Assembly (NCBI GenBank): GCA_027082925.1
Contig: JALWTD010000018.1
Location: 62,001 to 126,000, forward strand
Reading direction: 5' to 3'
Source of the DNA: Flavobacteriaceae bacterium
Lineage (GTDB): Bacteria > Bacteroidota > Bacteroidia > Flavobacteriales > Flavobacteriaceae
DNA: 64,000 nucleotides
Shown: positions 3,820 through 43,650 of the stretch, piece after piece
How the letters are laid out: every line of letters begins with the position of its first letter
How positions within the stretch are numbered: position 1 is the stretch's first letter
Translations under genes and position numbers: made by a program
The notes under the pieces: model-generated
Databases searched by the model: none
Told to the model about the DNA's origin: nothing
What the model saw: the letters and a program-made list of their open reading frames with translations, nothing else

Positions 3820-4146
3820 TTACTTTTTACTTTCCCAATACTGAGGTTTTACATTTTCTGTTTTTTGAAACCAATAATCTTGCGTTACTTTTTTCCCATC
3901 AAAAGTTTTTAATTTTCGTTCAAAAATATAAATGGTTGGGTTAAATACCATATCTGTAACGGCTACAGTATACAACTGAGGTTCTTCTTCACTTTTGCGT
4001 TTTTCTTCTTGAATAATAACTTCAAAACCGTTGTGTTCTAGGAGTTTTTTTAAAAAGTTTTTTCGGTTTTCGTCAATTTTTTTCTCTACAAAAGTAACTC
4101 TTGTATCGTCTATACTTCCAAATAAATGTTTTCCTGCTAACGCCAT
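3820..4146 (-). CDS. Conserved hypothetical protein, last gene of the nuo run
   Basis: A 108-residue soluble protein with no signal peptide or membrane segment, and no family that I recognise. It is rich in Lys, Glu and Phe and appears to be a small alpha/beta protein (FEVIIQEE, LYTVAVTDMVFNPTIYIFERKL). It lies 6 bases downstream of nuoN in the same direction, so it is likely cotranscribed with complex I. That position could suggest an accessory role but may be coincidental. Confidence 0.6.
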   Translation of the reverse strand: MALAGKHLFGSIDDTRVTFVEKKIDENRKNFLKKLLEHNGFEVIIQEEKRKSEEEPQLYTVAVTDMVFNPTIYIFERKLKTFDGKKVTQDYWFQKTENVKPQYWESKK

Positions 4147-4152
4147 AACTTT

Positions 4153-5580
4153 TTAGTTGAGATTACTACTTAGTTCGTAAATATAATCATATAACGGACT
4201 GTACAATCCTAAAATTAAAATACCAATAACGGTAATTATGAGTCCTAACCTCATATACAGTTTGTTTTTAAAAAATGGTATAGGATGATCGCTTTTTCTT
4301 AAAAACATAGCTCTAATTACCAGTAAATAATAATAAAGAGAAATGGTCACATTTACAACTGCTAAAAATACCAGCAAATAGTACCCTTTACTTGCAGCAG
4401 CGGTAAATAAGAAAAATTTCCCAAAAAATCCGGCAACCGGTGGTATTCCGGCTAAGGAAAATAAAGCCAACATCATTACCAAACTAAGGTTTGGATTTGT
4501 TCTGTACAAGCCTTCATAATCGGTCATATTTTCTTTTCCTGTTTTTAAAGAAATAGCTTGAACAACTCCAAAAGCAGCTAAGTTTGAGAAGATATAAATC
4601 ATTACAAAATAAACGATTGTTGCTGTACCAAGTTGAGTTCCTGTTATAAGTCCCAGTAAAATAAATCCGGCTTGAGCAATTGAAGAAAAAGCTAAAAACC
4701 GCTTCATATTTTGCTGTCTTAGTGCAAATAAATTACCGGTAAACATAGTTGCAAGAGCCACTACGTATAAAATATTTTCCCATATATGCATTAGTGGTTT
4801 TAATACGGTAAATAATAAAATCATTAAAATAAAAACTGCAGCACCTTTTGAAATAACAGACAAATATGATGCAACACTAATTGGCGCTCCTTCATAAACA
4901 TCGGCAGTCCAAAAGTGAAATGGTACTAGAGATATTTTAAAAGCCAATCCAGTAAAGAATAATACAAACCCTAAAATAGTAAGATAATTTGCTGTAATGG
5001 TATTTACAATATCATTAAAGTAAATAGATCCTGATGTTGCATAAAGCATAGAAATTCCAAAAAGAGATATTCCCGATGCTAATGCTGCAGAAAGTATTAG
5101 TTTAATACCGGCTTCGCTAGATTTTCTTTTTGAAGTTTCATAGGCAGCAAGTGCAGCTACAGGCAATGTAGATAGCTCTAAACCTAAATAAAACATAAGA
5201 AAATCTCCTGAAGAAATCATAAAATACATTCCTAATAAAGAAGAAAACAGCAGTATAAAAAACTCTGTACCTCTTTGTTGTTGTACCATTTTTTCTTGTA
5301 ACCAATCAGCAGATTGTAGAAGAAGTATTAATACTCCAACATTTAATACATTTTTAAAAAAGTGAATAAGGTTGTTAGTTTTAAACATAGTTCCAAATAA
5401 CACGCCTTCATCCATAGCAAAAAATCCAACAATGGTATGTATACCAAATAGAAATATAGCTAAATGTACAATGCTGCTCTTTTTGTTTTTATGAATAAAA
5501 ATTTCACCAACAATTAGCAATAGTAGTATTGCTAAAAGCAAAATTTCGTGTCTCATCAATAAAAAATTACTAAAATCCAT
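4153..5580 (-). CDS. nuoN: NADH-quinone oxidoreductase-type complex I subunit N
   Basis: A 475-residue antiporter-like membrane subunit with about 14 transmembrane helices. Characteristic elements are YLGLELSTLP in helix 5, the proton-channel region LVPFHFWTADVYEGAP near residue 220, a central lysine-bearing MKRFLAFSSIAQAGF segment, and SLAGIPPVAGFFGKF. Length matches the family. It is the last complex I gene in the operon, 21 bases after nuoM. NuoL, M and N form the distal proton-pumping arm in the inner membrane. Confidence 0.95.
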   Translation of the reverse strand: MDFSNFLLMRHEILLLAILLLLIVGEIFIHKNKKSSIVHLAIFLFGIHTIVGFFAMDEGVLFGTMFKTNNLIHFFKNVLNVGVLILLLQSADWLQEKMVQQQRGTEFFILLFSSLLGMYFMISSGDFLMFYLGLELSTLPVAALAAYETSKRKSSEAGIKLILSAALASGISLFGISMLYATSGSIYFNDIVNTITANYLTILGFVLFFTGLAFKISLVPFHFWTADVYEGAPISVASYLSVISKGAAVFILMILLFTVLKPLMHIWENILYVVALATMFTGNLFALRQQNMKRFLAFSSIAQAGFILLGLITGTQLGTATIVYFVMIYIFSNLAAFGVVQAISLKTGKENMTDYEGLYRTNPNLSLVMMLALFSLAGIPPVAGFFGKFFLFTAAASKGYYLLVFLAVVNVTISLYYYLLVIRAMFLRKSDHPIPFFKNKLYMRLGLIITVIGILILGLYSPLYDYIYELSSNLN

Positions 5581-5601
5581 TTTAGTTGTCTATTTTTAAT
5601 T

Positions 5602-7089
5602 TTATAATACTCCTTGAATAAATGGTTGTAAACTTTCTAATATCATATCGCTTAACCAAAGCGGTGCAACTCCCATTCCAACAATTGGAATAAGAAGCAG
5701 TAATACGCCAATTTTTTCGTACCAAGTTGCTTTAGGTAAGTTCAAATAATCGTTGTTTTTAACAGTACCCATTAACATAATTCCAACAACTCTTAAAATA
5801 TAAACTGCTGTAACTACAATTGCTGAAACAGAAATAATAGTGGCTACTCTATAAAAAGTTTCTTCGTGTTGAAAAGCCCCTACAAAAATGTTCATTTCGG
5901 CAACAAACCCACTAAATCCGGGTAATCCTAAAGAGGCCAATCCGGCAATAACATAAATAGCAGAAATAAAAGGAATTACTTTTAATAAGCCTCCTAATTT
6001 AGTAATATCTCTTGTATGTGTTCTGCCGTAAATCATTCCTATTAACGCAAAGAAAAGAGCAGTCATAAATCCGTGAGAAAGCGATTGTAATATAGCTCCA
6101 TTCCAAGCTGTTTTGTTGAGCATTAGTAAGGCAAACAGCACCATTCCTAAGTGACTCACAGATGAGTATGCATTTATGTATTTTAAATCGGTTTGTTTTA
6201 TAGCTCCAAAGGCACCGTAAATTACACCTGTGGCTGATAAAATGATAAAGAACCACGACCAGTCTATAGCTCCTTGCGGAAGTAAAAACATAGCAACTCT
6301 AAAAACACCGTATCCTCCCAATTTCATAAGTACTCCGGCGTGAAGCATTGATACGGCTGTTGGAGCAGAAGCGTGTCCGTCAGGAGACCAAGTATGGAAT
6401 GGAAATAAAGCGCCTAAAACAGCAAACCCGATAAAAGTAAGTGGAAAAAATAGTTTTTGAGCTTCAAACGGAATATGCACTTTGGCAATTTCTAATATAT
6501 TAAAAGTAAGAGCTCCGCCATCGGCATTAGAGTTAAAATAAATTCCTAAAATACCAACAAGTAATACTGCAGATGCACCCATTAACATAAGTGTTAATTT
6601 CATTGCTGAATATTCTTTAGGTCCGGTTCCCCAAATACCAATTAAAAGATACATTGGTATTACGGCAATTTCGTAAAAAACGAACATGGTAAACAAATCC
6701 ATCGAAATAAAGAACCCATACACTCCGGTTGATAGCACCAAAAGAGATATAAAAAACTCTTTAGGTAATTCTTTCATTTTCCAAGAAATAAACACACCCG
6801 CAAGTACAACAATTGATGTTAATAAGAGCAATGCCACAGAAATACCATCTACGCCAATATTGTAATGAATATTAAATTGCTTAAACCAAACAACATCTTT
6901 GGTGAATAGCATAAGACTATCATTTACAGCTCTTTCTTTAAAATATGCAAAAAGGAGGTTTATAGCCATTCCTAATTGTATTATACTCCCAATCATTGAT
7001 ACCAATCGGGCTTGTTTGAGGCCCTTAGTAAAAACCAACGTTAAAATTGTTAGTACCGGTACTATTACAAAAAGTGATAAAATATCCAT
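5602..7089 (-). CDS. nuoM: Complex I subunit M (antiporter-like)
   Basis: A 495-residue polytopic membrane protein. The conserved Glu in helix 5 is in FVFYEIAVIPMYLLIG, followed by LFPFHTWSPDGHASAPTAVS, the lysine-containing TDLKYINAYSSVSHLGM and SLGLPGFSGFVAE. These are the standard NuoM proton-path motifs and the length is normal. The gene follows nuoL by 9 bases. Confidence 0.96.
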   Translation of the reverse strand: MDILSLFVIVPVLTILTLVFTKGLKQARLVSMIGSIIQLGMAINLLFAYFKERAVNDSLMLFTKDVVWFKQFNIHYNIGVDGISVALLLLTSIVVLAGVFISWKMKELPKEFFISLLVLSTGVYGFFISMDLFTMFVFYEIAVIPMYLLIGIWGTGPKEYSAMKLTLMLMGASAVLLVGILGIYFNSNADGGALTFNILEIAKVHIPFEAQKLFFPLTFIGFAVLGALFPFHTWSPDGHASAPTAVSMLHAGVLMKLGGYGVFRVAMFLLPQGAIDWSWFFIILSATGVIYGAFGAIKQTDLKYINAYSSVSHLGMVLFALLMLNKTAWNGAILQSLSHGFMTALFFALIGMIYGRTHTRDITKLGGLLKVIPFISAIYVIAGLASLGLPGFSGFVAEMNIFVGAFQHEETFYRVATIISVSAIVVTAVYILRVVGIMLMGTVKNNDYLNLPKATWYEKIGVLLLLIPIVGMGVAPLWLSDMILESLQPFIQGVL

Positions 7090-7098
7090 ATTAATTTG

Positions 7099-9018
7099 TT
7101 AGTTTGTCCATAAATAAATAAAAACCAAAGCAATAACTACAACTCCCGAAACAAAATAAAGGGCATAATCTTGAACTTTACCAGATTGAATTCCTTTTAT
7201 TTTATTTGAAGTAACAACGGTTTTGTTTCCTATACCTTCCATTGTAGCATCAACAACTTTTTTGTCGAACCAAGCTATTGGAGCAGCCACACGTTTGAAT
7301 AATATTTTTTTGGTTACAAACATGTATATTTCATCAAAGTAAAATTTGTTGCTTGCCCATTTGTATAGAAAACCAAATCCATTTGCAAACTTATCAGCTA
7401 AATTATTTTCCTTTTTATAAAAAATCCAAGCAACAATGATTCCAATAAGTCCTACAGCAATAGCGATGGCTGCTAACGGATAATCTAAATGAGTTTCAAA
7501 CCCGGCTTTATCAGCAGAAACAAATTCGCTAAATGGAATAAATCCTGTTGAAATACTTAGCAATGCAAGAATCATTAGCGGAAAAGTCATAGATAAAGGT
7601 GATTCATGAGGAGTGTGTTTGTATTCTCTTTCTTTTCCCCAAAAAATGCCAAAGTAAATTCTAAACATATAAAATGCAGTTAGTCCGGCAACAAAAACAC
7701 TTACGTAGTAGATTAATTTATTGTGTTCAAAAGCAGCAACTAAAATTTCATCTTTACTAAAGAATCCGGCAAAAGGAGGGATTCCTGAGATTGCCAATGC
7801 AGCAATTAAAAAGGTGATGTTAGTAATAGGCATATATTTTCGTAATCCACCCATATCTTTCAAGTAATTGCTATGTACGGCATGAATCACAGATCCTGCA
7901 CCTAAGAATAATAATGCTTTAAACATAGCATGTGTAAATAGGTGGAACATAGAAGCCATATACCCAACACCTTCGTGTCCGTCATAACCGGAAACACCTA
8001 AGGCTAACATCATATAACCTAATTGCGACATTGTAGAGAAGGCTAAAACACGTTTAATATCTGTTTGAGTTATTGCTATAACCGCTGCAAATAGGGATGA
8101 AAATGCTCCAACATACGCTACAATGTTTAACGCAAAACCGTCTTCAACAAAATAGTACATTGGAAATAAACGAGCTACCAAATATACACCGGCAACTACC
8201 ATTGTTGCTGCGTGAATTAAGGCCGATACCGGAGTAGGGCCTTCCATAGCATCAGGTAGCCATATGTGTAGTGGGAACATTGCAGATTTACCTGCACCAC
8301 CCATAAAAATTAAGATTAGTGCCCACGTAATTACCGATAAGCCCATAAATGAGGTAGATGCCCAATTTAGTATGGCACTTCCTTCAGGGTTGTTTAGTGT
8401 TTCAAAATCGTATGTACCTGTGTAGTATCCTATAATTAAAATTCCTATTAAGAAACCTAAATCTGCAAACCGAGTTACAATAAAGGCTTTTTTTGCGGCT
8501 GCAACGGCCGAAGTTTTTGTGTAATAATAACCAATGAGTAAGTAGGAAGATACTCCAACAAGCTCCCAAAAGATATATATTTGGAATAAGTTAGTAGCTA
8601 ATACAAGTCCGTAAATAGAAAAAGAGAATAAAGATAGGTATGCAAAAAAGCGTGTATAACCATCATCACCTTTCATGTACCCTCTACTATAAATATGAAC
8701 CATTAGTGATACTATTGACACAACAATAAGCATCATAACAGAAATAGGATCAATTAAGACACCCATATCTATATGTAGTGTATCGGTAAAATTCATCCAA
8801 ACTGTTTTTTCAACAAAAGTTTGATACACGCCATCTACTTTTCCGTAAATAAAAAAGTATTGGTAGGCAGTGTAGAACGATAAAATACCAGATGCTATTA
8901 ATCCAAATACACCAATGTATCCTGAAATAGCAGGTTTAATTTTTTGATTAAAAATTCCTAACAGCAAAAATACTGCTAGCGGAATTAACGGAATTAATAT
9001 TGTATAATTTAGATTCAT
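7099..9018 (-). CDS. nuoL: Complex I subunit L (antiporter-like, with lateral helix)
   Basis: A 639-residue membrane protein with the Mrp-type core (FWELVGVSSYLLIGYY, LHIWLPDAMEGPTPVSALIHAATMV, DIKRVLAFSTMSQLGYMM, SGIPPFAGFFSKDEI). The C-terminal extension, about residues 500-639, should supply the long amphipathic helix that runs along NuoM and NuoN. It lies 11 bases after nuoK. All key charged residues of the pump appear to be present, so the complex should be able to translocate protons despite lacking the NADH module. Confidence 0.96.
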   Translation of the reverse strand: MNLNYTILIPLIPLAVFLLLGIFNQKIKPAISGYIGVFGLIASGILSFYTAYQYFFIYGKVDGVYQTFVEKTVWMNFTDTLHIDMGVLIDPISVMMLIVVSIVSLMVHIYSRGYMKGDDGYTRFFAYLSLFSFSIYGLVLATNLFQIYIFWELVGVSSYLLIGYYYTKTSAVAAAKKAFIVTRFADLGFLIGILIIGYYTGTYDFETLNNPEGSAILNWASTSFMGLSVITWALILIFMGGAGKSAMFPLHIWLPDAMEGPTPVSALIHAATMVVAGVYLVARLFPMYYFVEDGFALNIVAYVGAFSSLFAAVIAITQTDIKRVLAFSTMSQLGYMMLALGVSGYDGHEGVGYMASMFHLFTHAMFKALLFLGAGSVIHAVHSNYLKDMGGLRKYMPITNITFLIAALAISGIPPFAGFFSKDEILVAAFEHNKLIYYVSVFVAGLTAFYMFRIYFGIFWGKEREYKHTPHESPLSMTFPLMILALLSISTGFIPFSEFVSADKAGFETHLDYPLAAIAIAVGLIGIIVAWIFYKKENNLADKFANGFGFLYKWASNKFYFDEIYMFVTKKILFKRVAAPIAWFDKKVVDATMEGIGNKTVVTSNKIKGIQSGKVQDYALYFVSGVVVIALVFIYLWTN

Positions 9019-9029
9019 ATTCTCAAATA

Positions 9030-9347
9030 TTAATACTTCATAGTTTCAGTGTCCTTTACCTCAACAGAGCTTATTTGTCTGTACAGGTTAATAATTATAG
9101 CAACTGCTAAAGCTGTTTCTGCAGCTGTAACGGCGATAATAAAAATTGAAAACAAAACCCCTTGAAGAATGTCAGGATATAAATATTTGTTAATAATCAC
9201 AAAATTTACGACCGAAGCATTCATTATTAATTCTATAGAAATAAGAATTGAAATAAGGTTTTTTCTTGTTATAAATCCGTAAATACCAATAAAGAATAGG
9301 ATGGAGGTTACGGTTAGTATTTCGTATATGCTAATTCCGGCTATCAT
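9030..9347 (-). CDS. nuoK: Complex I subunit K
   Basis: A 105-residue protein with three transmembrane helices. The two conserved membrane glutamates of the family lie in SIELIMNASVVNF (helix 2) and AAETALAVAII (helix 3). It starts 2 bases after the nuoJ stop. NuoK sits between the quinone site and the antiporter-like subunits and contributes to the proton path. Confidence 0.95.
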   Translation of the reverse strand: MIAGISIYEILTVTSILFFIGIYGFITRKNLISILISIELIMNASVVNFVIINKYLYPDILQGVLFSIFIIAVTAAETALAVAIIINLYRQISSVEVKDTETMKY

Positions 9348-9349
9348 TA

Positions 9350-9865
9350 TTAGTTTATTTTATCGGTTAATTTTTTCCCTTTGGCAATTATAATTGCCCC
9401 AATCATTGCGGCTAACAATAGCACACTTATCACTTCAAAAGGAAGTATAAATCCGCCATTTCCGTAGCTTAATAATTTTGTACCTATATCTTCTGTGGTA
9501 GTTGAAATTGAGTTTTCAACAACGTTAAAGTTATACGAGTAGATTGTAGTTAAAAACACCCCAAGACCAATTGCACATATTATTCCTGTAAGTATTTTTT
9601 TTGAAGTTTTGGCAACTTCAAGTTCCATTTCTATGTGGTGTACCAATAAAACTGAAAATATAATGAGTACAATAATACCTCCGGCATATACCGTTAATTG
9701 TATGGCTCCTAAGAAATTGTAATCGATTAAAAAATAAATACCGGCAACACTTACTAATACAAATAGTAAGTAGATAACTGATCGAAGCATTTTACGACTG
9801 CTAACAGATGCAATTGCAAATACAATCATTAATAGTGCTAAAATGTAAAATATTATTTTTTCCAT
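9350..9865 (-). CDS. nuoJ: Complex I subunit J
   Basis: About 171 residues, five transmembrane helices, with the helix-3 region LGAIQLTVYAGGIIVLIIFSVLL, which contains the conserved Tyr-Ala-Gly-Gly turn. I chose the ATG at 9865 (MEKIIFYIL), because the in-frame ATG at 9880 would overlap nuoI and add five poorly conserved residues. It occupies its usual place between nuoI and nuoK. Confidence 0.93.
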   Translation of the reverse strand: MEKIIFYILALLMIVFAIASVSSRKMLRSVIYLLFVLVSVAGIYFLIDYNFLGAIQLTVYAGGIIVLIIFSVLLVHHIEMELEVAKTSKKILTGIICAIGLGVFLTTIYSYNFNVVENSISTTTEDIGTKLLSYGNGGFILPFEVISVLLLAAMIGAIIIAKGKKLTDKIN

Positions 9866-9869
9866 AAGC

Positions 9870-10346
9870 TTATTCTTCAACTCCAGGTTTTAATCTAGAA
9901 CCCGGTTTATTTAATACTCTAGTAAGATACGATCTGTCGTAAACAGAATTTTCAAAGTTTTGTGCCCATTTAATAGCATCGGTAGGACAGGCTTCTATAC
10001 ATAGTCCACACATCGTGCACATTCCTAAATGGTAAATGTGCTTTTCTATCATTTTCTTTTTCTTTCCTGTTTCCGGATCAACTTTTCTATCCCAAATAAT
10101 TTCGATACTTCCGTTAGGACAAGCTAATTCACATTTTTGGCAACCGGTACAACGATGCTCATTGTTCTCATCGTGAGGCATTACAACTTCACCTCTAAAA
10201 CGGTCAAACATTTTTAAGGAGTCTCTATTATCTGGGTATTGTTGTGTAATGGCTCCTTTTCTTGAATTTAAGAAGTACTTTCCGGTAACACTCATTCCCG
10301 TTAAAAGTGTTTTTATACCTTTATATATATCTGAAAAATAACTCAT
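9870..10346 (-). CDS. nuoI: Complex I subunit I (2x[4Fe-4S])
   Basis: A 158-residue ferredoxin-like subunit with two CxxCxxCxxxCP motifs: Cys 66, 69, 72, 76 and Cys 110, 113, 116, 120. These bind clusters N6a and N6b, which pass electrons towards NuoB. In a complex without NuoE, F and G this subunit becomes the natural docking point for an external ferredoxin. The flanking genes and order are standard, and the gene begins 5 bases after nuoH. Confidence 0.96.
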   Translation of the reverse strand: MSYFSDIYKGIKTLLTGMSVTGKYFLNSRKGAITQQYPDNRDSLKMFDRFRGEVVMPHDENNEHRCTGCQKCELACPNGSIEIIWDRKVDPETGKKKKMIEKHIYHLGMCTMCGLCIEACPTDAIKWAQNFENSVYDRSYLTRVLNKPGSRLKPGVEE

Positions 10347-10351
10347 AATTT

Positions 10352-11440
10352 CTAAAATTGAATTGTTAAGTTAAGCCAAACAATAAGTGCCATAAGAACA
10401 ATATTTAATAGGTTTAACGGTAGTAAATATTTCCATTCTAATGTTAACAGTTGGTCAATTCTAAGTCTAGGGAACGTCCATCTAAACCACATCATTAAAA
10501 ACACAATAAGTAGTGTTTTACCTAAAAACCAAAAAACGCCTAATACCGGTATTGATTCTGTAACACCGAAAGGAGAAAGCCATCCTCCAAAAAAGATGGT
10601 TGTGGCTATTGATGCAATAATGAACATATTTATAAATTCGGCTAAAAAGAAGTAGGCAAATTTCATTCCTGAATATTCAGTATGAAAACCGGCTCCTAAT
10701 TCCGATTCTGCTTCTACCATATCAAAAGGGGCTCTGTTTGTTTCTGCAGTTCCGGCAATCATGTAAATCATAAATGCAATTACAGCAGGAATATGTCCTT
10801 GTACAATGAGCCAACCATTTTTTTGAACTTCTACAATTTCTGATAGTTGTAGCGATCCGGTAATTAAGACCATTGTTAATAACGATAAACCAACAGATAG
10901 TTCGTAGCTTATAGTTTGTACACCACTACGCATAGCTCCAATTAAGGCAAATTTATTATTGCTGCTCCAGCCTCCTAATAAAATTCCAATAACTCCAATT
11001 GAAGAAATTGCTATTAGAAAGAAGATACCAATATTTATATCAAAAGCTTGAAACTCCTTTGTAAAAGGGAATACGGCTAAGGCCATTAATGATGAAATGA
11101 TTACAAAGTAAGGAGCTAAGTTGTATAAAAATTTATCAGCTCTATCAGTTCCGGTTAATTCTTTTGATACTAGTTTTAGTGCATCTGCCATAGTTTGTAA
11201 AAGACCTTTAAAACCAACTCTATTTGGTCCTAGGCGTAATTGAAACCAAGCAGCTACTTTTCGTTCTAGTAATACTAAGTACAATCCTGCTACTGCAAAA
11301 ATGGCTAAATACACGAGTGCAATTAATACCATTTCAGTAATGCTTGCTGCACCTTCTGGCATTATACTAAAAAGCCAGTTGTGAATATTTTTTGTGATAC
11401 TTAATGAGATATGATTCATTGTATTTGTTTTATCTGTCAA
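10352..11440 (-). CDS. nuoH: Complex I subunit H (quinone site)
   Basis: A 362-residue membrane protein with about 8 helices. Hallmarks are LLERKVAAWFQLRLGPNRVG, the quinone-chamber loop around ETNRAPFDMVEAESELGAGFHTEYSG, and FRWTFPRLRIDQL near the C-terminus. Its start lies inside the last codons of nuoD (overlap of 11 bases), so nothing intervenes between nuoD and nuoH. That junction is where nuoE, nuoF and nuoG stand in ordinary 14-gene operons. Confidence 0.96.
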   Translation of the reverse strand: MTDKTNTMNHISLSITKNIHNWLFSIMPEGAASITEMVLIALVYLAIFAVAGLYLVLLERKVAAWFQLRLGPNRVGFKGLLQTMADALKLVSKELTGTDRADKFLYNLAPYFVIISSLMALAVFPFTKEFQAFDINIGIFFLIAISSIGVIGILLGGWSSNNKFALIGAMRSGVQTISYELSVGLSLLTMVLITGSLQLSEIVEVQKNGWLIVQGHIPAVIAFMIYMIAGTAETNRAPFDMVEAESELGAGFHTEYSGMKFAYFFLAEFINMFIIASIATTIFFGGWLSPFGVTESIPVLGVFWFLGKTLLIVFLMMWFRWTFPRLRIDQLLTLEWKYLLPLNLLNIVLMALIVWLNLTIQF

Positions 11441-12551
11441 TATCTGGTACTACAATATCTAACGTTGCCATTGTTGCAACTAAATCACCTATTTTACCAC
11501 CAACAGCAATATGGCTTAGAAGTGATAAATTTGAGAATCCAGGAGAACGGAATTTAACTCTGTACGGATTTTTTGTTCCGGTACTAATGATATATACTCC
11601 TAACTCTCCTCTTGCAGTTTCAACTTTTTGATAATATTCTCCTTTTGGAAGTTTTATTACGGCATTAGTTGCTACTTTATAATCTCCTTCAGGAATATTA
11701 TCTATTAGTTGTTCTATAATTGATAGTGATTCCCACATTTCTTGAATTCTAACTTGGTATCGAGCAAATGTATCACCTTCTGTTTTTAAGGCTTCGTTAA
11801 AAGTAACTCTATCAAGTGCACTATACGGATGATGTTTTCTAACATCGCAAGAATATCCTGAAGCTCTACCAACAGGTCCTGAAGCTCCAAAAGAAATAGC
11901 GTCTTCTTTGGTTAAAATACCTACGCCTTTAGTTCTTTTTTGAAAAATCACATTTCCTGTTAATAAGGTGTCGTATTCTGGTAGTTTTGTTTTAAAGTGT
12001 GCAATAAAGTCTTTTACACGCTTTACAAAGTTTGGATGAATGTCAAACATTAATCCGCCCGGAATATTATAATTCATTGTTAGTCGAGCACCGCATGTTT
12101 CTTCAAAAATGTCATTAATCATTTCGCGATCTCTAAACCCATAAAAGTAGGTGGTTAAAGCTCCAACATCCATTCCCATAACTCCCCACCATAAGCAGTG
12201 CGATGCTATTCGAGTAAGTTCACCAATAATGGTTCTAATTACTTTTACTCTGTCTGGCACTTCAATTTGTAGGGCATTTTCTACAGTTAAGCATACAGCT
12301 TCATTGTTTATATGAGATGATAAATAGTCCATACGATCTGTTAAATGAACTATTTGTTGGTAGCTATCGCGTTCGCACATTTTTTCTATAGAGCGATGGA
12401 TATATCCTAAATCAGGTTCAACTTTTTTAATAATTTCACCATCTATGGTTAACAAAAGTCTTAAAACACCATGCGTTGCAGGGTGTTGAGGTCCCATATT
12501 AATGAAATATTCTTCTGATTTAAAGTTGCTATTATTAGTGGTTGTTTCCAT
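11430..12551 (-). CDS. nuoD: Complex I subunit D (49-kDa homologue)
   Basis: A 373-residue subunit, not fused to NuoC. It begins with a short acidic leader and then MGPQHPATHGVLRLLLTIDGE, the quinone-site His loop of the family. LGYIHRSIEKMCER, GGLMFDIHPNF and the C-terminal DIVVPDIDR are also typical. NuoD and NuoB together form the quinone reduction site at the end of the iron-sulfur chain. It overlaps nuoH and follows nuoC by 7 bases. Confidence 0.96.
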   Translation of the reverse strand: METTTNNSNFKSEEYFINMGPQHPATHGVLRLLLTIDGEIIKKVEPDLGYIHRSIEKMCERDSYQQIVHLTDRMDYLSSHINNEAVCLTVENALQIEVPDRVKVIRTIIGELTRIASHCLWWGVMGMDVGALTTYFYGFRDREMINDIFEETCGARLTMNYNIPGGLMFDIHPNFVKRVKDFIAHFKTKLPEYDTLLTGNVIFQKRTKGVGILTKEDAISFGASGPVGRASGYSCDVRKHHPYSALDRVTFNEALKTEGDTFARYQVRIQEMWESLSIIEQLIDNIPEGDYKVATNAVIKLPKGEYYQKVETARGELGVYIISTGTKNPYRVKFRSPGFSNLSLLSHIAVGGKIGDLVATMATLDIVVPDIDR

Positions 12552-12558
12552 AGATTAC

Positions 12559-13020
12559 TTATTTGATAATCATATTAACTTCATCTACGAAGTCTTTTCT
12601 TAAAGGAAATCTTTCCCAATCTTCAGTTAAAAAGAGATTTTTGAGGTTTGGATGATTGTTAAATTTTATTCCAAAAAAATCAAAGACTTCACGTTCATGA
12701 AATTCAGCTGTTGCCCAAATATCAGATACAGAATCGAATGTAGGATTCTCTCTGTCTTCGGTTTTTACTTTAACAACAATAATATGTCTGTGCACGGTAG
12801 ACTCTAAGTGATAAACAACGCCTAGTTCTTTTCCCCAATCAACACCGCTCAAACAAAACAAATAGTCAAATTGAGTTTCGGTATTACTTTTTAATTGATT
12901 CATGAAATGGTGAAGCTGTTCTGGTTGCACATTGATATTTAAAAATTGAGATCCTTCTTCTGTAAATTCCAAATCAGGAACCCAACTATTTACGAGTGTT
13001 TGTATGGCTTCATTTGTCAT
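12559..13020 (-). CDS. nuoC: Complex I subunit C (30-kDa homologue)
   Basis: A 153-residue soluble subunit. The family signature is the segment ATAEFHEREVFDFFGIKFNNHPNL near residue 105-128, ending in LRKDF. It helps assemble NuoB and NuoD in the hydrophilic arm. It is separate from nuoD, as in most Bacteroidota, and lies 11 bases after nuoB. Confidence 0.95.
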   Translation of the reverse strand: MTNEAIQTLVNSWVPDLEFTEEGSQFLNINVQPEQLHHFMNQLKSNTETQFDYLFCLSGVDWGKELGVVYHLESTVHRHIIVVKVKTEDRENPTFDSVSDIWATAEFHEREVFDFFGIKFNNHPNLKNLFLTEDWERFPLRKDFVDEVNMIIK

Positions 13021-13031
13021 AATTTCCGGTT

Positions 13032-13592
13032 TTATAGTCCTTCATCAAATCCGTCAACAGGATTTTTTTTATGCTTCATACTTTCCGTTCTAATTTTATC
13101 TTGAAGCATTAACATTCCTTCTAATAATGCTTCGGGTCTAGGAGGGCATCCAGGCACATAAACATCAACAGGTATTACGTGGTCTGCTCCTTTTACAACA
13201 GAATAGGAGTTGTAAAAAAACGGACCTCCAGAAATAGCACAGGCTCCCATAGCAATTACGTATTTTGGTTCGGCCATTTGGTCGTATAACCTACGTAATA
13301 CGGGTGCCATTTTATTTACAATGGTACCTGCAATTATAATTAAATCGGCTTGTCTAGGTGAAGGCCTTGCTACTTCGAAACCAAACCTTGAATAATCATG
13401 GCGTGCAGCTCCTGTTTGCATCATTTCAATGGCACAACAACTTGTTCCAAAGTAAAGCGACCAAAGTGAATTTGATCGCCCCCAATTAATTATTTTGTCT
13501 AATGAAGTAACAATTACGTTAGCTCCATTTCCTGCAGGAATTACTTTTCCCGGGAAATCTTCCGGTATGTTATTTGTGTTATTTACTCCCAT
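13032..13592 (-). CDS. nuoB: Complex I subunit B (cluster N2)
   Basis: About 186 residues. Ligands for the terminal [4Fe-4S] cluster N2 are visible as the tandem cysteines in [11 protein letters not shown], then MGACAISGG and [14 protein letters not shown]; in the longer 193-residue reading these are Cys 59, 60, 125 and 156. I prefer the ATG at 13592 (MGVNNTNN), which overlaps the end of nuoA by about 10 bases. The alternative ATG at 13613 adds seven residues and a longer overlap. Confidence 0.94.
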
Positions 13593-13933
13593 TTTAAAGC
13601 TCCTTTTTTCCAAGCGTAAATTAAACCTAATCCTAAAATGAGTAGAAATACGAGTATTTCAATAAAAGCTACGGCGCCTACGTTTTTAAATACGACGGCC
13701 CAAGGAATTAAAAATGCTACTTCTACGTCAAAAACTAAAAACAAGATTGCAAATAGGTAGTAACCTACTTTAAATTGAACCCAAGTGGGCCCAATAGTTC
13801 TCATTCCACTTTCGTAAGGTTCTCGTTTTTGAGGATTGTCAGATTTATGCGAGATTAGATTAGATAAAAAATTTGCTCCGGCAACTAATACGATGCCTGC
13901 AAGTAGAAATACAATAATTGCTTCTGACCCCAT
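13583..13933 (-). CDS. nuoA: Complex I subunit A
   Basis: About 116 residues with three transmembrane helices. The conserved loop after helix 1, [43 protein letters not shown], includes the invariant Glu and the FDVE motif. The open frame extends upstream to 14005, but that extra part is basic and unlike the family, so I place the start at the ATG at 13933 (MGSEAIIVF). It is the first nuo gene and is 83 bases from korB. Confidence 0.94.
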
Positions 13934-14016
13934 TTTATTTCTTTTTTTGTGAGATAAAAGTAGTTGAATACTTTTAGTTTTTAGCTGATAATAATCAGCT
14001 ACCAATGTTACTTTTA

Positions 14017-15030
14017 TTACTTAACTTCGTATGTTTCTCCAGAGAAAAATAAGTCGTCTGTTTTTGAAAATTTAGAATTTGCTTTCACTTCTGCAGTTAG
14101 TGCATTTTCTCTTTCTTCAAGTGTTACATCATCAAAACTTCTTATAATTCCTGTTACGAGTGGATATTCTAGTCTAACAAGCATTTGGTGTAATGTTGGA
14201 TCTTGTTCTTTTGCGTCGTGTACTAAAATATCGTCTTCAGTAATACCATTTTCTCCAATGGTAACAACTTCTAATTTAAGACCGTTTAATACAAGTCCTT
14301 TATCGTTGTTTTGACCAAAAATCATAGGTTTACCGTGTTCTACATAAAGTTGCTTATCGGCTTTAACTTTTTTATCTGTAAATTGTGTAAAGCAACCATC
14401 GTTAAAAATTACACAGTTTTGTAAAACTTCAATAAGTGATGTTCCTTTGAATTTTTCGGCTTCAATAAAAATCTTCGTCATATCTTTCGGAGTATTTCCT
14501 CCAATTCTGGCAAAAAATCGAGCTTGTGCTCCAATAGCCAATTCTCCGGGAGAGAAAGGAGGTTGTGTATTTCCGTAAGGAGATGATTTTGTTTTTTGTC
14601 CAACTAAAGATGTTGGAGAAAACTGACCTTTGGTTAATCCGTAAATTTCATTATTAAATAGGATAATATTTAAGTCTATATTTCTTCTTAATACGTGAAT
14701 AAAATGATTTCCACCAATAGCCATAGAGTCTCCGTCACCGGTAATAATCCAAACGCTTAAGTCTGGGTTTGCAAGTTTAACACCTGAGGCAATTCCAGGA
14801 GCTCTACCGTGAATACTATGCATTCCGTAAGTATTCATATAATATGGAAAACGTGATGAACATCCAATACCAGAGATAAATACAACGTCTTCTTTTTTAA
14901 CACCCATTTCAGGAAGAGCTTTTTGCATAGAACGCAAAATAACATAGTCATCACAACCTGGACACCATCTTACTTCTTGGTCACTTGCAAAGTCTTTAAA
15001 TGTATATTTTTTTTCAACTGTTGTTTCCAT
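14017..15030 (-). CDS. korB: 2-oxoacid:ferredoxin oxidoreductase, beta subunit
   Basis: A 337-residue thiamine-diphosphate subunit. The TPP/Mg motif GDGD begins at residue 98 and closes with Asn 126-127 (FNNEIYGLTKGQ). Cys 23, Cys 26 (WCPGC), Cys 57 (GCSSR) and Cys 206 (QNCVIF) are the four expected ligands of its single [4Fe-4S] cluster. There is no extra ferredoxin domain, so a separate ferredoxin must take the electrons. It starts 2 bases after korA and points into the nuo genes. The sequence type fits 2-oxoglutarate oxidoreductases, but pyruvate or branched-chain oxoacids cannot be excluded. Confidence 0.92.
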   Translation of the reverse strand: METTVEKKYTFKDFASDQEVRWCPGCDDYVILRSMQKALPEMGVKKEDVVFISGIGCSSRFPYYMNTYGMHSIHGRAPGIASGVKLANPDLSVWIITGDGDSMAIGGNHFIHVLRRNIDLNIILFNNEIYGLTKGQFSPTSLVGQKTKSSPYGNTQPPFSPGELAIGAQARFFARIGGNTPKDMTKIFIEAEKFKGTSLIEVLQNCVIFNDGCFTQFTDKKVKADKQLYVEHGKPMIFGQNNDKGLVLNGLKLEVVTIGENGITEDDILVHDAKEQDPTLHQMLVRLEYPLVTGIIRSFDDVTLEERENALTAEVKANSKFSKTDDLFFSGETYEVK

Positions 15031-15032
15031 AA

Positions 15033-16889
15033 TTAGTCTACTAATTGTTTAAATTTTTGAATGAGTTCGTTGTTACCAAAAGGCAATCCTTGTACTTTGT
15101 TAAATTGTAACACATTAAAACCTTCTAAGTTCATTCTTAGTACTTTTGCAAATTGACCGTTGTTTAATTCACACACGATAATTTTTTTGAACTTACCTAA
15201 AACTTCACTTGTATTTTTAGGAAGTGGGTTAATGTAGTTAAAGTGTGCAAAGCCAATATTTTTATAACCTTCTTCGTTTAATTGCTTTACAGCAGAGTGG
15301 AGCGATCCGTATGTTCCTCCCCAACCAATAACTAGTAAGTCGCCACTGTCAGCAAATTCTGTTTCTAGATCTGGTATGTAATTTTGAACTCTTTTTATTT
15401 TCTCAGCTCTAATTTTAGTCATGTATTCGTGGTTGTCAGGAACGTAAGAAACGTTTCCGGTAACTCTGTCTTTTTCCAATCCACCAACTCTATGTTCAAG
15501 ACCTTCTGTACCAGGGATAGCCCAGTTTCTAGCTAAAGTATCTTCATCTCTATCATAAGGATGCCAGTTTTCTGAAGCTTCTTTTACAATGTTGTTTTTT
15601 ATTTCAGGCATTTCAGAAACCGATTTTATTTTCCAAGGAGCAGATCCGTTGGCAATATATCCATCTGTAAGTAATATTACAGGTGTCATATGTTCTAGTG
15701 TTAATTTAGCGGCTTCATAAGCAAAGTTGAAACAATTTGAAGGAGTGCTTGCTGCAATAACAATTACAGGACTTTCTCCGTTTCTTCCGTATAAAGCTTG
15801 TAATAAATCCGATTGTTCTGTTTTTGTAGGAAGCCCTGTTGATGGTCCTCCTCTTTGTACGTTTACTACTACCAATGGAAGCTCTAACATCATGGCTAAT
15901 CCTAATGCTTCACCTTTTAAAGCTAAGCCGGGTCCAGATGTGGTTGTAATTGCTAAGTCTCCGGCAAAAGACGCTCCTATAGCAGAGGTAATTCCTGCAA
16001 TTTCATCTTCGGCTTGAAATGCTTTCACGCCAAAATGTTTGTGTTTTACAAGTTCGTGTAAAATATCTGTAGCAGGTGTAATAGGGTAAGACCCTAAGAA
16101 TAATTCTAGACCAGACTTTTCAGCTGCGGCTAAAAATCCCCATGCAGTAGCAGTATTCCCCATAATAATTCTATAAGTTCCGGCCTTCATTTTAGCAGGA
16201 GATATAGTATATGAATTTGGAATTAACTCCAGTGTTTCTGCAAAGTAAAATCCTGCATTTAACACTTTCGTATTTGCTTCAATAATTTGAGGTTTAGATT
16301 TAAACTTTTTATTAAAAAAGTTTATTGTATGCTCGGTAGAACGGTCGTACATCCAGTACACCATTCCTAAGGCGAACATATTTTTGCTTCGAGTAATACT
16401 TTTATTATCTAATCCCTCAACATCTTTTAGTGCTTCTTTGGTTAACGAAGTCATGGCAACTTCAATAACTCTATAGTTTTCTAAACTTCCGTCTTCTAAG
16501 GGATTTGACTCGTACTGTGCCTTTTCTAAATTCTTTTTGGTAAAAGCGTCGGTATCAACAATAATTGTGTGTCCCGGTTTTACGGCGTGTAAATTTGTTT
16601 TTAATCCGGCAGGGTTCATAGCTACCAGCAAATCTACATTATCACCTGGGGTACTTACTTCTACACTACCAATGTGAACTTGGAATCCTGAAACCCCGTA
16701 CAAACTTCCTTGAGGGGCTCTAATTTCTGAAGGGTAATTGGGAAAGGTGGCAATATCATTACCAAACATTGCAGAGGTGTCAGAAAATTGGGTTCCCGTC
16801 AACTGCATTCCATCTCCTGAATCACCAACAAAACGAATGACAACTGCTTCGAGTACTTCGGGTTGATGATTTTTTTTAGCTGTAATCAT
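15033..16889 (-). CDS. korA: 2-oxoacid:ferredoxin oxidoreductase, fused gamma-alpha subunit
   Basis: A 618-residue protein. Residues about 15-200 are the gamma domain (RFVGDSGDGMQLTG, then IRAPQGSLYGVSGFQVHIGS). From about residue 225 comes the alpha domain with GSYPITPATDILHEL, AFQAEDEIAGI, TTTSGPGLALKGE and GGPSTGLPTKTEQSDL. The last motif is characteristic of the 2-oxoglutarate-type enzymes. With KorB it oxidatively decarboxylates a 2-oxoacid to its acyl-CoA and reduces ferredoxin, standing in for the NAD-linked dehydrogenase in the TCA cycle. It is the first gene of the run leading into nuoA-N, and a ferredoxin gene is divergent from it. Confidence 0.93.
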   Translation of the reverse strand: MITAKKNHQPEVLEAVVIRFVGDSGDGMQLTGTQFSDTSAMFGNDIATFPNYPSEIRAPQGSLYGVSGFQVHIGSVEVSTPGDNVDLLVAMNPAGLKTNLHAVKPGHTIIVDTDAFTKKNLEKAQYESNPLEDGSLENYRVIEVAMTSLTKEALKDVEGLDNKSITRSKNMFALGMVYWMYDRSTEHTINFFNKKFKSKPQIIEANTKVLNAGFYFAETLELIPNSYTISPAKMKAGTYRIIMGNTATAWGFLAAAEKSGLELFLGSYPITPATDILHELVKHKHFGVKAFQAEDEIAGITSAIGASFAGDLAITTTSGPGLALKGEALGLAMMLELPLVVVNVQRGGPSTGLPTKTEQSDLLQALYGRNGESPVIVIAASTPSNCFNFAYEAAKLTLEHMTPVILLTDGYIANGSAPWKIKSVSEMPEIKNNIVKEASENWHPYDRDEDTLARNWAIPGTEGLEHRVGGLEKDRVTGNVSYVPDNHEYMTKIRAEKIKRVQNYIPDLETEFADSGDLLVIGWGGTYGSLHSAVKQLNEEGYKNIGFAHFNYINPLPKNTSEVLGKFKKIIVCELNNGQFAKVLRMNLEGFNVLQFNKVQGLPFGNNELIQKFKQLVD

Positions 16890-17057: not shown

Positions 17058-17411
17058 ATGGCTATTAAAATAACTGACGAGTGCATTAACTGCGATGCTT
17101 GTATTTCTGAGTGTCCAAATAATGCAATTTACGAACCAGATAGTGAGTGGGCTTATTCAGACGAAACATCACTAAGTGGTATGGTAACACTACCTAGCAC
17201 AGGTGAAGAAGTTGATGCTGATGAAATGCATGAACCATTATCTGACGAATTTTATTTTATTGTAACTGATAAATGTACAGAATGTAAAGGTTTTCATGAT
17301 GAGCCTCAATGTGCATCTGTTTGTCCTGTTGATTGTTGTGTGCCTGATGAAGACCACGAAGAAACAGAAGAACAATTATTGGCTAAAAAAGCTTGGTTAC
17401 ACGGCGAATAA
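17058..17411 (+). CDS. 2x[4Fe-4S] ferredoxin
   Basis: A 117-residue acidic protein. Cluster one uses Cys 9, 12, 15 and 19 (CINCDACISECP). Cluster two uses Cys 73, 76, 85 and 89 (CTECKGFHDEPQCASVCP), with the longer CxxC-x8-CxxxC spacing of the Alvin-type bacterial ferredoxins. An acidic stretch of about 50 residues separates them and an acidic tail follows, both suitable for docking to basic partners. Its position divergent from korA makes it the likely carrier between KorAB and complex I, although that partnership is inferred. Confidence 0.9.
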   Translation: MAIKITDECINCDACISECPNNAIYEPDSEWAYSDETSLSGMVTLPSTGEEVDADEMHEPLSDEFYFIVTDKCTECKGFHDEPQCASVCPVDCCVPDEDHEETEEQLLAKKAWLHGE

Positions 17412-30208: not shown

Positions 30209-32191
30209 ATGAAAACAATTTTTAAATCTCTATTTGCAATTACAGTATTATCGGTAATACTTAGTAGTTGTGGAAATGGAGGAACAAACAAAAAAGGCTC
30301 TCAAGGAGCTTTATCTGGAAATGCTGCAGAGCGAGTATATGTAGCTCCAGGTGAACACGATGAATTTTACGCATTTGTATCAGGTGGATTTAGTGGGCAG
30401 TTATCTGTTTACGGACTTCCTTCAGGTCGTTTATTTAAAGTAATCCCTGTATTTTCTGTAGATGCAGAAAAAGCTTATGGATTTAATGAAGAAACAAAAG
30501 CAATGTTAATGACTTCTCACGGATTTATTCCTTGGGATGATTCTCACCATCCAGATATATCTCAAACAGAAGGAGTATTAGACGGACGTTGGATATTTAT
30601 TAATGCAAACAATACACCTCGTATTGCAAAAATAGATTTAACAACTTTTGAAACAACAGAAATTCTTGAGATTCCAAATTCAGCAGGAAATCACAGTTCT
30701 TCTTTTGTGACAGAAAACTCTGAGTATGTAGTTGCAGGGACACGTTTCGGTATTCCATTCCCTCAAAGAGATATGCCTATTGATGAATATAAAGGAAACT
30801 TTAAAGGAGCTTTATCTTTCATTAAATTAGATCCTGAAGATGGAACAATGGATTTATCTTTCCAAATTAGAATGCCAGGATTTAACTACGATTTATCGCA
30901 CCCAGGACGTGGAAAATCTCACGGATGGTTTTTCTTTAGTACATATAACACTGAAGAATCAAACTCATTACTTGAAGTTAATGCTTCACAAAACGATAAA
31001 GATTATATCGCAGCTGTAAACTGGAAAAAAGCAGAAGAGTACATTAAAGCAGGTAAATATAAAACAATGCCAGCTAGATATGCACATAATACATATGACG
31101 AAAAAACACATACAGCTTCAACAGAATGGGGTAAAGAAGTAAAAGTATTAGACCCAGCAGAATGCCCAGGTCTTGTATATTTTTTACCAACTCCTAAATC
31201 ACCTCATGGTTGTGATGTAGATCCTTCAGGAGAGTACATTATAGGAAATGGAAAATTAGCTGCTGAACTTACAGCACACTCATTTACAAAAATGCTTAAA
31301 GCCATTGAAGAGAAAAAATTTGATGGAGAAGCTTATGGAATTCCTATCTTAAAATACGAAGATATCTTAGCAGGAGTTGTTAAACAACCAGGATTAGGAC
31401 CATTGCATACAGAGTTTGACGGTAAAGGAAATGCATATACTACATTCTTTATTTCTTCTGAAGTAGTAAAATGGAAATTAGGAACTTGGGAAGTAATTGA
31501 CAGAAAACCTACCTATTATTCTGTAGGTCACTTGATGATTCCTGGAGGAAACTCACGTAAACCATTTGGTAAATATGTGCTTGCAATGAATAAAATCACA
31601 AAAGACCGTTATTTACCAACAGGACCAGAGGTAACACAATCTGCTCAGTTATATGATATCACCGGAGAAAAAATGGAGTTATTATTAGACTTCCCTACTA
31701 TTGGTGAGCCTCATTACGCTGCAGGTATTCCGGCTAGTATAATAGCAGAAAACTCTAAGAAAATATACAAATTGGAAGAAAACGAGCATAAATATGCCGT
31801 TAAAAGTGAAGCAGAAGCTAAAGTGGAAAGAAACGGAAACGAAGTACATATTTATATGACAATGATTCGTTCTCACTTTGCACCAGATAATATTGAAGGT
31901 GTTAAAGTAGGAGACAAAGTTTACTTTCACGTAACAAACTTAGAACAAGATTATGACGTACCTCACGGTGTTTCTATGATTGGAGCTCAAACATCAGAGT
32001 TGTTAATTATGCCAGGTCAAACAGAAACATTTATTTGGGAACCAAAAGAAGTAGGTATTTGGCCATTCTATTGTACAGACTTCTGTTCTGCATTACACCA
32101 AGAAATGCAAGGATATGTTAGAGTTTCTCCAAAAGGATCTAAAGTTCCTATTAAATTTACATTAGACGGAGATGCTGTAGATGCCGAATAG
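30209..32191 (+). CDS. nosZ: Nitrous-oxide reductase, clade II (Sec-exported)
   Basis: A 660-residue enzyme with a Sec/lipoprotein-type signal (VILSSCGN, Cys 21) in place of the twin-arginine signal of clade I. Histidines in conserved contexts for the CuZ cluster include His 113-114 (DDSHHPD), 162 (GNHSSS), 238 (SHGW), 333 (SPHGCD), 400 (GPLHTEF) and 502 (EPHYAAG). The C-terminal cupredoxin domain binds CuA with His 586, Cys 622, Cys 626, His 630 and Met 633 (YCTDFCSALHQEM). It reduces N2O to N2 in the periplasm. A strong terminator follows immediately. Confidence 0.97.
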   Translation: MKTIFKSLFAITVLSVILSSCGNGGTNKKGSQGALSGNAAERVYVAPGEHDEFYAFVSGGFSGQLSVYGLPSGRLFKVIPVFSVDAEKAYGFNEETKAMLMTSHGFIPWDDSHHPDISQTEGVLDGRWIFINANNTPRIAKIDLTTFETTEILEIPNSAGNHSSSFVTENSEYVVAGTRFGIPFPQRDMPIDEYKGNFKGALSFIKLDPEDGTMDLSFQIRMPGFNYDLSHPGRGKSHGWFFFSTYNTEESNSLLEVNASQNDKDYIAAVNWKKAEEYIKAGKYKTMPARYAHNTYDEKTHTASTEWGKEVKVLDPAECPGLVYFLPTPKSPHGCDVDPSGEYIIGNGKLAAELTAHSFTKMLKAIEEKKFDGEAYGIPILKYEDILAGVVKQPGLGPLHTEFDGKGNAYTTFFISSEVVKWKLGTWEVIDRKPTYYSVGHLMIPGGNSRKPFGKYVLAMNKITKDRYLPTGPEVTQSAQLYDITGEKMELLLDFPTIGEPHYAAGIPASIIAENSKKIYKLEENEHKYAVKSEAEAKVERNGNEVHIYMTMIRSHFAPDNIEGVKVGDKVYFHVTNLEQDYDVPHGVSMIGAQTSELLIMPGQTETFIWEPKEVGIWPFYCTDFCSALHQEMQGYVRVSPKGSKVPIKFTLDGDAVDAE

Positions 32192-42475: not shown

Positions 42476-42507
42476 TTTTTGAAGTTGTAAAGTTTACGTA
42501 AGGTTTA

Positions 42508-43638: not shown

Positions 43639-43650
43639 TTTTTATATATT

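Follow-up and report, generated by a model that had tools for sequence, protein, structure and literature searches.

A headless complex I encoded beside a 2-oxoacid:ferredoxin oxidoreductase in a Flavobacteriaceae bacterium, with ferredoxin as its likely electron donor

Background

What donates electrons to a complex I that lacks its NADH-oxidizing module, NuoEFG? Such headless complexes, encoded by nuoABCDHIJKLMN, have been described in Bacteroides fragilis and Prevotella, and the donor or the exact function is stated as open in the accessible portions of these papers (PMC7002350, PMC6560451, PMC10542786), one of which writes of an "unknown electron donor (Xred.)" (PMC7002350) and another that "More experiments are needed" (PMC10542786). 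According to the same portions, the headless B. fragilis complex is without NADH activity, and NADH is oxidized by Nqr in both groups, plus NDH2 in B. fragilis (PMC7002350, PMC6560451, PMC10542786). Here, we address this question with a stretch of 64,000 nucleotides (the window; positions 62,001 to 126,000 of contig JALWTD010000018.1, assembly GCA_027082925.1) from a Flavobacteriaceae bacterium, in which genes for an eleven-subunit complex I follow those of a 2-oxoacid:ferredoxin oxidoreductase, KorAB. The host genome comprises 2.47 Mb in 21 contigs and is 99.98% complete, and the nearest KorB from a named organism belongs to Lutibacter sp. B1 (92%).

A first-pass annotation of the window, made from its letters alone, had proposed that KorAB feeds this complex with reduced ferredoxin, making it a ferredoxin:quinone oxidoreductase. 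Comparative genomics strengthened that proposal and left the interpretation as a whole partly supported: we consider it likely that the locus encodes a ferredoxin:menaquinone oxidoreductase of the complex I family fed by KorAB.

Results

Gene content of the kor-nuo run

The genes korA-korB-nuoABCDHIJKLMN form a single minus-strand run (positions 4153-16889), with the order and strand of the first-pass annotation borne out by the open reading frames (ORFs) and by NCBIfam. That annotation called the two systems "fused", which is right in the sense of one gene run and in no other, and it delimited the run well from korA to nuoN while overlooking a further gene on either flank: orf108 after nuoN, and the ferredoxin gene fdx divergent from korA. 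Subunit names below are from NCBIfam, and several best scores lie below the curated cut-offs (e.g., NuoI and NuoC).

fdx, 17058-17411, plus strand: 117-aa 2[4Fe-4S] ferredoxin, 168 bases from korA; NCBIfam YfhL-family dicluster ferredoxin, 95.1 bits (cut-off 86)
korA, 15033-16889, minus strand: 2-oxoacid:ferredoxin oxidoreductase uniting the gamma and alpha domains in a single protein; TIGR03710 (OAFO_sf), 656 bits (cut-off 483)
korB, 14017-15030, minus strand: TPP-binding beta subunit; TIGR02177 (PorB_KorB), 244 bits (under the cut-off of 262); TPP_enzyme_C
nuoA, 13583-14005, minus strand: likely start at the ATG at 13933
nuoB, 13032-13613, minus strand: four cysteines in presumed N2-ligand motifs
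nuoC, 12559-13020, minus strand: NCBIfam 120.3 (cut-off 122)
nuoD, 11430-12551, minus strand: quinone-type, without CxxC pair
nuoH, 10352-11440, minus strand: NF004741, 341 bits (cut-off 305)
nuoI, 9870-10346, minus strand: 158 aa, two CxxCxxCxxxCP motifs; NCBIfam 90.8 (cut-off 113)
nuoJ, 9350-9880, minus strand: named from NCBIfam
nuoK, 9030-9347, minus strand: named from NCBIfam
nuoL, 7099-9018, minus strand: NF005141, 648 bits (cut-off 556)
nuoM, 5602-7089, minus strand: TIGR01972, 418 bits (cut-off 264)
nuoN, 4153-5580, minus strand: TIGR01770, 372 bits (cut-off 333)
orf108, 3820-4146, minus strand: conserved small protein of 108 aa, 6 bases after nuoN; proposed twelfth gene of the complex I subtype

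The headless set is complete (NuoA, B, C, D, H, I, J, K, L, M, N), and, as had been claimed, nuoE, nuoF, and nuoG are missing from their standard place, being found neither between nuoD and nuoH, where a 14-subunit arrangement would hold them, nor elsewhere in the run. Gaps within the run reach at most 83 bases, the largest arising with the first ATG of nuoA at 13933, while the reported 11-base overlap of nuoD and nuoH exists with a TTG start of nuoH and becomes a 10-base gap with the first ATG. In related loci, all 33 mapped korB-nuoA pairs are co-directional and closely spaced (−45 to 503 bases between match edges), and thus their adjacency goes beyond chance; a promoter and terminator scan was uninformative on transcription (62 promoter-like signals vs 56.9 expected; 8 terminator-like vs 8.1). 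The matches to nuoB at L012 and to korB at L114 are each split in two, suggesting a frameshift or an assembly error.

KorAB carries gamma, alpha, and beta domains, a TPP site, and the CPGC cluster motif, and the one model scoring above its cut-off names only the 2-oxoacid superfamily. The Pfam domains POR and POR_N of KorA score above cut-off and PFOR_II below it (25.2 vs 27), and the four Protein Data Bank (PDB) relatives of KorB at E 1e-10 are all 2-oxoacid, 2-oxoglutarate, or pyruvate ferredoxin oxidoreductases. No separate gene for a ferredoxin-like delta subunit lies within the run. The protein encoded by fdx has CxxCxxCxxxCP at residue 9 and CxxC-x8-CxxxCP at residue 73 and is very acidic (30 D+E vs 5 K+R), and a divergent copy of its gene adjoins korA in 44 of the 54 mapped family-level loci described below, loci cut by contig ends being counted.

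The four cysteines of NuoB are retained, both 4Fe-4S motifs are present in NuoI, and NuoD has the motifs GPxHPxxHG and RxDY without a NiFe-type CxxC. On the meanings that we take these motifs to have (N2 ligands, 4Fe-4S clusters, and a quinone rather than a NiFe site), the three subunits appear to keep what electron transfer from NuoI to quinone would need, and none shows hydrogenase motifs. An identity as an Ech or Mbh hydrogenase was ruled out, as NuoD lacks NiFe ligands while the cluster ligands of NuoB and NuoI are present.

NADH oxidation and the absence of NuoEFG

The first-pass annotation had staked its reading on the genome holding no nuoEFG elsewhere, and the only NuoF-type protein found is part of a formate dehydrogenase (FDH). 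The single match to PF01512 (NuoF), at position 222157 of contig C17, is a fusion of NuoE and NuoF (541 aa); next comes a protein of 905 aa that scores 787 bits as Fdh-alpha (cut-off 666) and only 308 as NuoG (cut-off 470), and then an fdhD-like gene (215 bits, below its cut-off of 269):

NuoEF-FdhA-FdhD-like set, L002:9615-14755 (G000 C17 ~221614-226754): NAD-linked formate dehydrogenase

This set is an NAD-linked FDH, one that simple annotation could mistake for the missing NuoEFG, and a hidden NADH module encoded elsewhere was rejected because the sole NuoEF found belongs to it. The three PF00384 matches of the genome are FdhA, a DMSO-reductase-like protein, and a Qrc/ActB-like protein (the latter two below family cut-offs), so that the PF01512 and PF00384 searches revealed no NuoE, NuoF, or NuoG for complex I. 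A complete nqrA-F set, another search that the annotation had named, lies on contig C16 with each gene over a cut-off, and NADH oxidation would be covered by this Na+-NQR.

This pattern extends to relatives. In a sample of 149 Flavobacteriaceae genomes, the NuoD subtype of the window (at least 74% identity) was found in 17, seven of which (G103, G154, G183, G249, G252, G271, and G275) are absent from the 36 PF01512-positive genomes. As the assemblies of these seven, whether draft or complete, reach 95-100% completeness, the complex apparently does not require NuoF. By contrast, at locus L125 (genome G021) the FDH queries NuoEF and FdhA match between nuoD and nuoH.

Linkage of kor with nuo, and its alternation with rnf, in Flavobacteriaceae

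KorB (at least 62% identity) is present in all 17 genomes with the NuoD subtype and in 26 genomes of the sample, nine of them without such a NuoD. In 16 of the 17, korB lies within about 3 kb of nuoD on the same contig; in G271 the two are on different contigs. We mapped the korB regions of the 25 genomes besides our own and of the 28 named loci that came closest (L011-L038; L029 and L106 share a single record). Across the 26 genomes, korB has nuo adjacent in 16, rnf at the locus in five, and neither in five (G179, G250, and G289; G194, where the contig ends; and G271, with nuo elsewhere). Where rnf is present, it follows korB directly and convergently (G207, G208, G270), comes 4 kb after it (G285), or lies on the 5' side of korA (G276). 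The named loci show the same alternatives, with nuo in 18, rnf in three (Aureibaculum luteum, Allomuricauda nanhaiensis, and one metagenome-assembled genome), and neither on the stretch in seven.

Not one of the 54 mapped family-level loci holds nuo and rnf together. The rnf genes were identified by tblastn in eight of the 54; at L017, RnfA, B, C, D, E, and G all score over their cut-offs, while L108 yields only A, E, G, D, and C before its contig ends. The window genome itself has no RnfC-type PF01512 match, and PFOR is encoded on 27 of the 54 stretches.

The exchange can be seen within a common frame in the window, L017, L011, and L095, where the interval lies between korB and related genes for cation/proton antiporters in the same orientation (63-73% identical to those of the window in the other three loci; NCBIfam matches below cut-off). 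It is filled by nuo and orf108 in the window, by rnf in L017, by one glycosyltransferase-like and one phosphoesterase-like gene in L011, and by nothing in L095, where the match edges are ~6 bases apart. A KorB tree of 118 rows, obtained by a short tree search, has 44 weak inner branches among 114 and long end branches, including L167 and L161. Its Flavobacteriaceae part, of 52 labelled rows (35 nuo, 8 rnf, 9 none; L096 left out for its contig end), implies at least seven changes between nuo and rnf as neighbours, though it is weakly resolved there; well-supported branches alone force three gains or losses of rnf, with the truncated L014, L015, L022, and L023 labelled "none".

Linkage beyond the family

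NuoD was found in 131 of 148 genomes of the phylum, and PF01512 in 111 of them. The class-level sample comprised 295 genomes, of which 45 (our own included) have the NuoD subtype (at least 60% identity), and the mapped regions of the other 44 comprise 12 that are kor-linked, 23 without kor on the stretch, and nine that are undecidable because of contig ends or because nuoD lies apart from nuoA. The linkage, for which the first-pass annotation had suggested a survey, thus holds in 16 of 17 subtype genomes of the family and is not general in Bacteroidota (12 of 35 decidable class-level loci).

The 12 linked loci are spread over six further family codes and show two arrangements besides that of the window. 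In G049 and G482, kor and nuo are co-directional as in the window, the divergent gene of G049 encoding an FdxA-like ferredoxin of 100 aa (below cut-off). In G387 the order is fdx-korA-korB-nuo-orf108-PFOR with every gene on one strand, and in nine loci kor is divergent from nuo, with a ferredoxin gene detected between them in seven. The eight readable KorBs of the divergent loci fall in a different, well-supported part of the tree, and a tree uniting them with the KorBs of Flavobacteriaceae and G049/G482 was rejected (p-AU 5e-8; the groups, here and in the count of nuo-rnf changes, were picked after viewing the tree, so that p values are indicative). Because both arrangements and KorB lineages differ, the kor-nuo association probably arose or was renewed more than once, and a merely inherited neighbourhood is insufficient to account for it. 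At three class-level loci (L134, L141, and L148, of G535, G309, and G380), the subtype nuoD stands alone on its stretch with orf108 on another contig, and the complex I genes seem to be dispersed.

A small gene that tracks the subtype

In the family sample, orf108 was found in 16 of the 17 genomes with the NuoD subtype and in none of the 132 others, and the one without it (G288) has a contig end before nuoN. In the class sample, it occurs in all 45 subtype genomes and in none of the other 250 at E 0.001; in 44 of them its position was compared with that of nuoD, and in 32 it shares contig and strand with nuoD, 7.3-9.5 kb beyond it, whereas in 12 it is on another contig. It follows nuoN in 19 of the 25 family-level stretches with nuoN, the other six breaking off inside nuoN or at its end. 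It thus comes after nuoN in each of the 19 family-level loci where it is present, and it does so in all 32 class-level subtype stretches with nuoN, including loci where kor lies elsewhere (G271, L116). Outside the subtype, neither orf108 nor kor was found next door in seven genomes whose NuoD has 48-59% identity in a 526-717-aa frame, which probably joins NuoC and NuoD, and orf108 was not found in seven loci from other classes of the phylum in which nuoH immediately follows nuoD (L119-L124, L126).

The protein matches no NCBIfam family at E 1e-5, no Pfam family above cut-off, and nothing significantly in the PDB (best E 0.086 by profile and 0.045 by single sequence); sub-threshold or single-member Pfam matches are VWD in four of 18 members (best E 0.0083) and DUF7349 in one (E 0.0013). 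It is without cysteine, 18 sequences share 19 invariant positions (counting the start), and its AlphaFold model (four rows, three truncated) has a mean pLDDT of 42.6. We consider orf108 to encode, probably, a peripheral accessory subunit or assembly factor of the subtype. It offers a handle on this subtype, which it tracks without counterexample in the 295 class-level genomes.

Other redox genes and neighbours

Several further genes of the genome were recorded. A sucAB-like pair was detected by tblastn with genes from L011 (over the sucA and sucB cut-offs), and a second, distant KorA/KorB-like pair lies at G000 C19:60615-62370 (KorB 36%; its KorA matches from profile position 186 and so is without the gamma part). 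A 1018-aa protein at L010:4101-7157 (G000 C18 ~161100-164156), the Qrc-like protein for which we presume the label ActB, has QrcB/QrcC-type matches below cut-off and hints at an alternative complex III. Elsewhere in the window, the following genes were identified:

30209-32191, plus strand: Sec-dependent (Gp-type) nitrous oxide reductase NosZ, 946 bits (cut-off 625)
33504-34739, plus strand: NosD maturation protein, 430 bits (cut-off 300)
39050-44997, minus strand: row of genes for a 1141-aa protein resembling RND efflux permeases (below cut-offs), an ORF of 376 aa, and an outer-membrane efflux protein

Judging from the nos genes, the organism can probably respire N2O.

Discussion

How the complex may be fed

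The observations that carry our reading are the gene content, the cluster motifs, the absence of NuoEFG, the conserved linkages, the alternation with Rnf, and the co-occurrence of orf108. With NuoEFG absent, the clusters of NuoI are the natural entry for a soluble carrier, and a ferredoxin:menaquinone oxidoreductase is the most likely identity because the locus encodes such a carrier together with an enzyme that reduces ferredoxin and, in relatives, also PFOR or Rnf. In the scheme that we infer, KorAB would oxidatively decarboxylate a 2-oxoacid, probably 2-oxoglutarate, and reduce the ferredoxin encoded alongside; the latter would pass electrons to the exposed NuoI clusters, from which they would travel through N2 in NuoB to menaquinone at NuoD/H and drive ion pumping through NuoL/M/N/H. 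The ferredoxin as donor is a candidate suggested by gene context.

Several observations weigh against this reading. The linkage is not obligatory, with 23 of the 35 decidable class-level loci (L174 among them) having no kor, and in G271 the kor and nuo modules lie apart. Nor does korAB need nuo or rnf alongside, as five of the 26 genomes have neither nearby (one of them cut by a contig end). The two machines are probably not exclusive, since one genome can hold both: PF01512 frames of RnfC length (444-460 aa), candidate RnfCs by that length, lie elsewhere in five of the 17 nuo genomes (G134, G150, G193, G262, and G288). Clustering of the rnf label on the KorB tree is not clear-cut (as few changes sufficed in 59 of 500 shuffles, again with L014, L015, L022, and L023 as "none"), KorAB is not the sole 2-oxoglutarate route given the sucAB-like genes, and the ferredoxin could serve other enzymes.

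These facts leave room for rivals, chief among them a reversal of the flow, in which menaquinol and an ion gradient would reduce ferredoxin and KorAB would carboxylate succinyl-CoA to 2-oxoglutarate. We hold this to be unlikely, while recognizing that gene content and linkage are compatible with either direction and that the sucAB-like genes are available for the oxidative step. Uphill reduction of ferredoxin by menaquinol would be costly, and PFOR, in the G387 run and on half of the family-level stretches (27/54), fits catabolic ferredoxin reduction better. In favor of reversal, the alternate at the locus, Rnf, can run backwards, according to the accessible text of one paper (PMC6560451). Alternatively, KorAB might dock directly on NuoI/NuoB, perhaps via orf108, in place of the NADH module and form a 2-oxoacid:quinone oxidoreductase; the short korB-nuoA gaps and the lack of a delta-subunit gene in the run would suit this, but the presence of a ferredoxin gene beside kor is conserved, some kor loci have rnf as partner or no partner at all, and orf108 is present with or without linked kor, all of which makes the arrangement improbable.

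Two other readings seem to us more improbable still. The NuoEF-FdhA enzyme encoded elsewhere could be the electron-input module, given its NuoE-, NuoF-, and NuoG-like domains, but we give this little credence: its catalytic subunit exceeds the Fdh-alpha cut-off (787/666) and misses that of NuoG (308/470) with an fdhD-like gene next to it, 7/17 NuoD genomes are without PF01512, and, as far as the accessible text goes, similar genes were re-annotated as FDH in a strict anaerobe whose complex has 11 subunits (PMC11238625). It is just as hard to credit that kor and nuo are neighbours by inheritance without a functional link, another donor such as flavodoxin serving the complex; the unlinked majority of class-level loci (23/35) would fit, whereas the three arrangements, with KorBs that do not form one clade, and the recurrent switching of nuo and rnf across the KorB tree speak against it. 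Going beyond the ferredoxin:menaquinone oxidoreductase that we favor, one may picture a class-wide complex I subtype in which orf108 is a twelfth dedicated subunit building the ferredoxin docking site, a proton-pumping ferredoxin:menaquinone oxidoreductase repeatedly exchanged with Rnf beside the same ferredoxin-reducing enzyme; we regard this fuller picture as possible but doubtful.

Significance and comparison with known systems

Headless complex I in Bacteroidota and the idea of a ferredoxin donor are known, the latter being in print for 11-subunit complexes in the accessible parts of three papers (PMC3534657, PMC6338057, PMC11238625). The kor linkage, the exchange with Rnf, and orf108 are apparently new within the open literature searched, in whose titles and abstract openings we found no report of a kor-nuo linkage, an rnf/nuo exchange, or orf108 as a twelfth gene. 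The available text of the Lutibacter profundi genome paper lists NADH-dehydrogenase complex I and Na+-NQR with no mention of missing subunits (PMC5219744). What the locus adds is a named donor pair, a specific ferredoxin and a specific oxidase, through which the published question of the headless complex I donor becomes testable, with the cassette also present in a deposited strain (L018, Lutibacter agarilyticus DSM 29150) and with a genomic control offered by the same locus carrying rnf or neither.

Among known systems, Rnf is a ferredoxin oxidoreductase that takes the place of nuo beside korAB in relatives, but it is an unrelated machine and reduces NAD+, not quinone. In Campylobacter, a 2-oxoacid oxidoreductase reduces the carrier that serves complex I. 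That complex is fed by this small carrier and not by NADH (Weerakoon and Olson 2008, as cited) and is reported, in the available text, to keep NuoG and to have 12 subunits (PMC7002350), while the corresponding text of another paper instead credits it with NuoE and NuoF (PMC10542786); here, NuoE, NuoF, and NuoG are all absent, NuoG being missing from the run as well as from the three PF00384 matches of the genome. The NDH-1 of cyanobacteria and plastids is likewise ferredoxin-fed, and the cyanobacterial form has extra subunits for electron delivery from ferredoxin (cited in the accessible part of PMC11238625), whereas orf108 has no significant match in NCBIfam, Pfam, or PDB. The complexes of B. 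fragilis and Prevotella share the 11 subunits without nuoEFG and the use of Nqr for NADH, but the accessible text writes NuoCD or NuoC/D (PMC6560451, PMC11304471), while the present locus has nuoC and nuoD as two genes, with kor linked and orf108 after nuoN. Finally, the 11-subunit complex of the strict anaerobe also lacks an NADH module, has PFOR-derived ferredoxin as its proposed donor, and is accompanied by NuoEFG-like genes elsewhere that belong to an FDH; in the accessible text no 2-oxoacid oxidoreductase or ferredoxin gene is reported in its run (PMC11238625), whereas the locus studied here has both.

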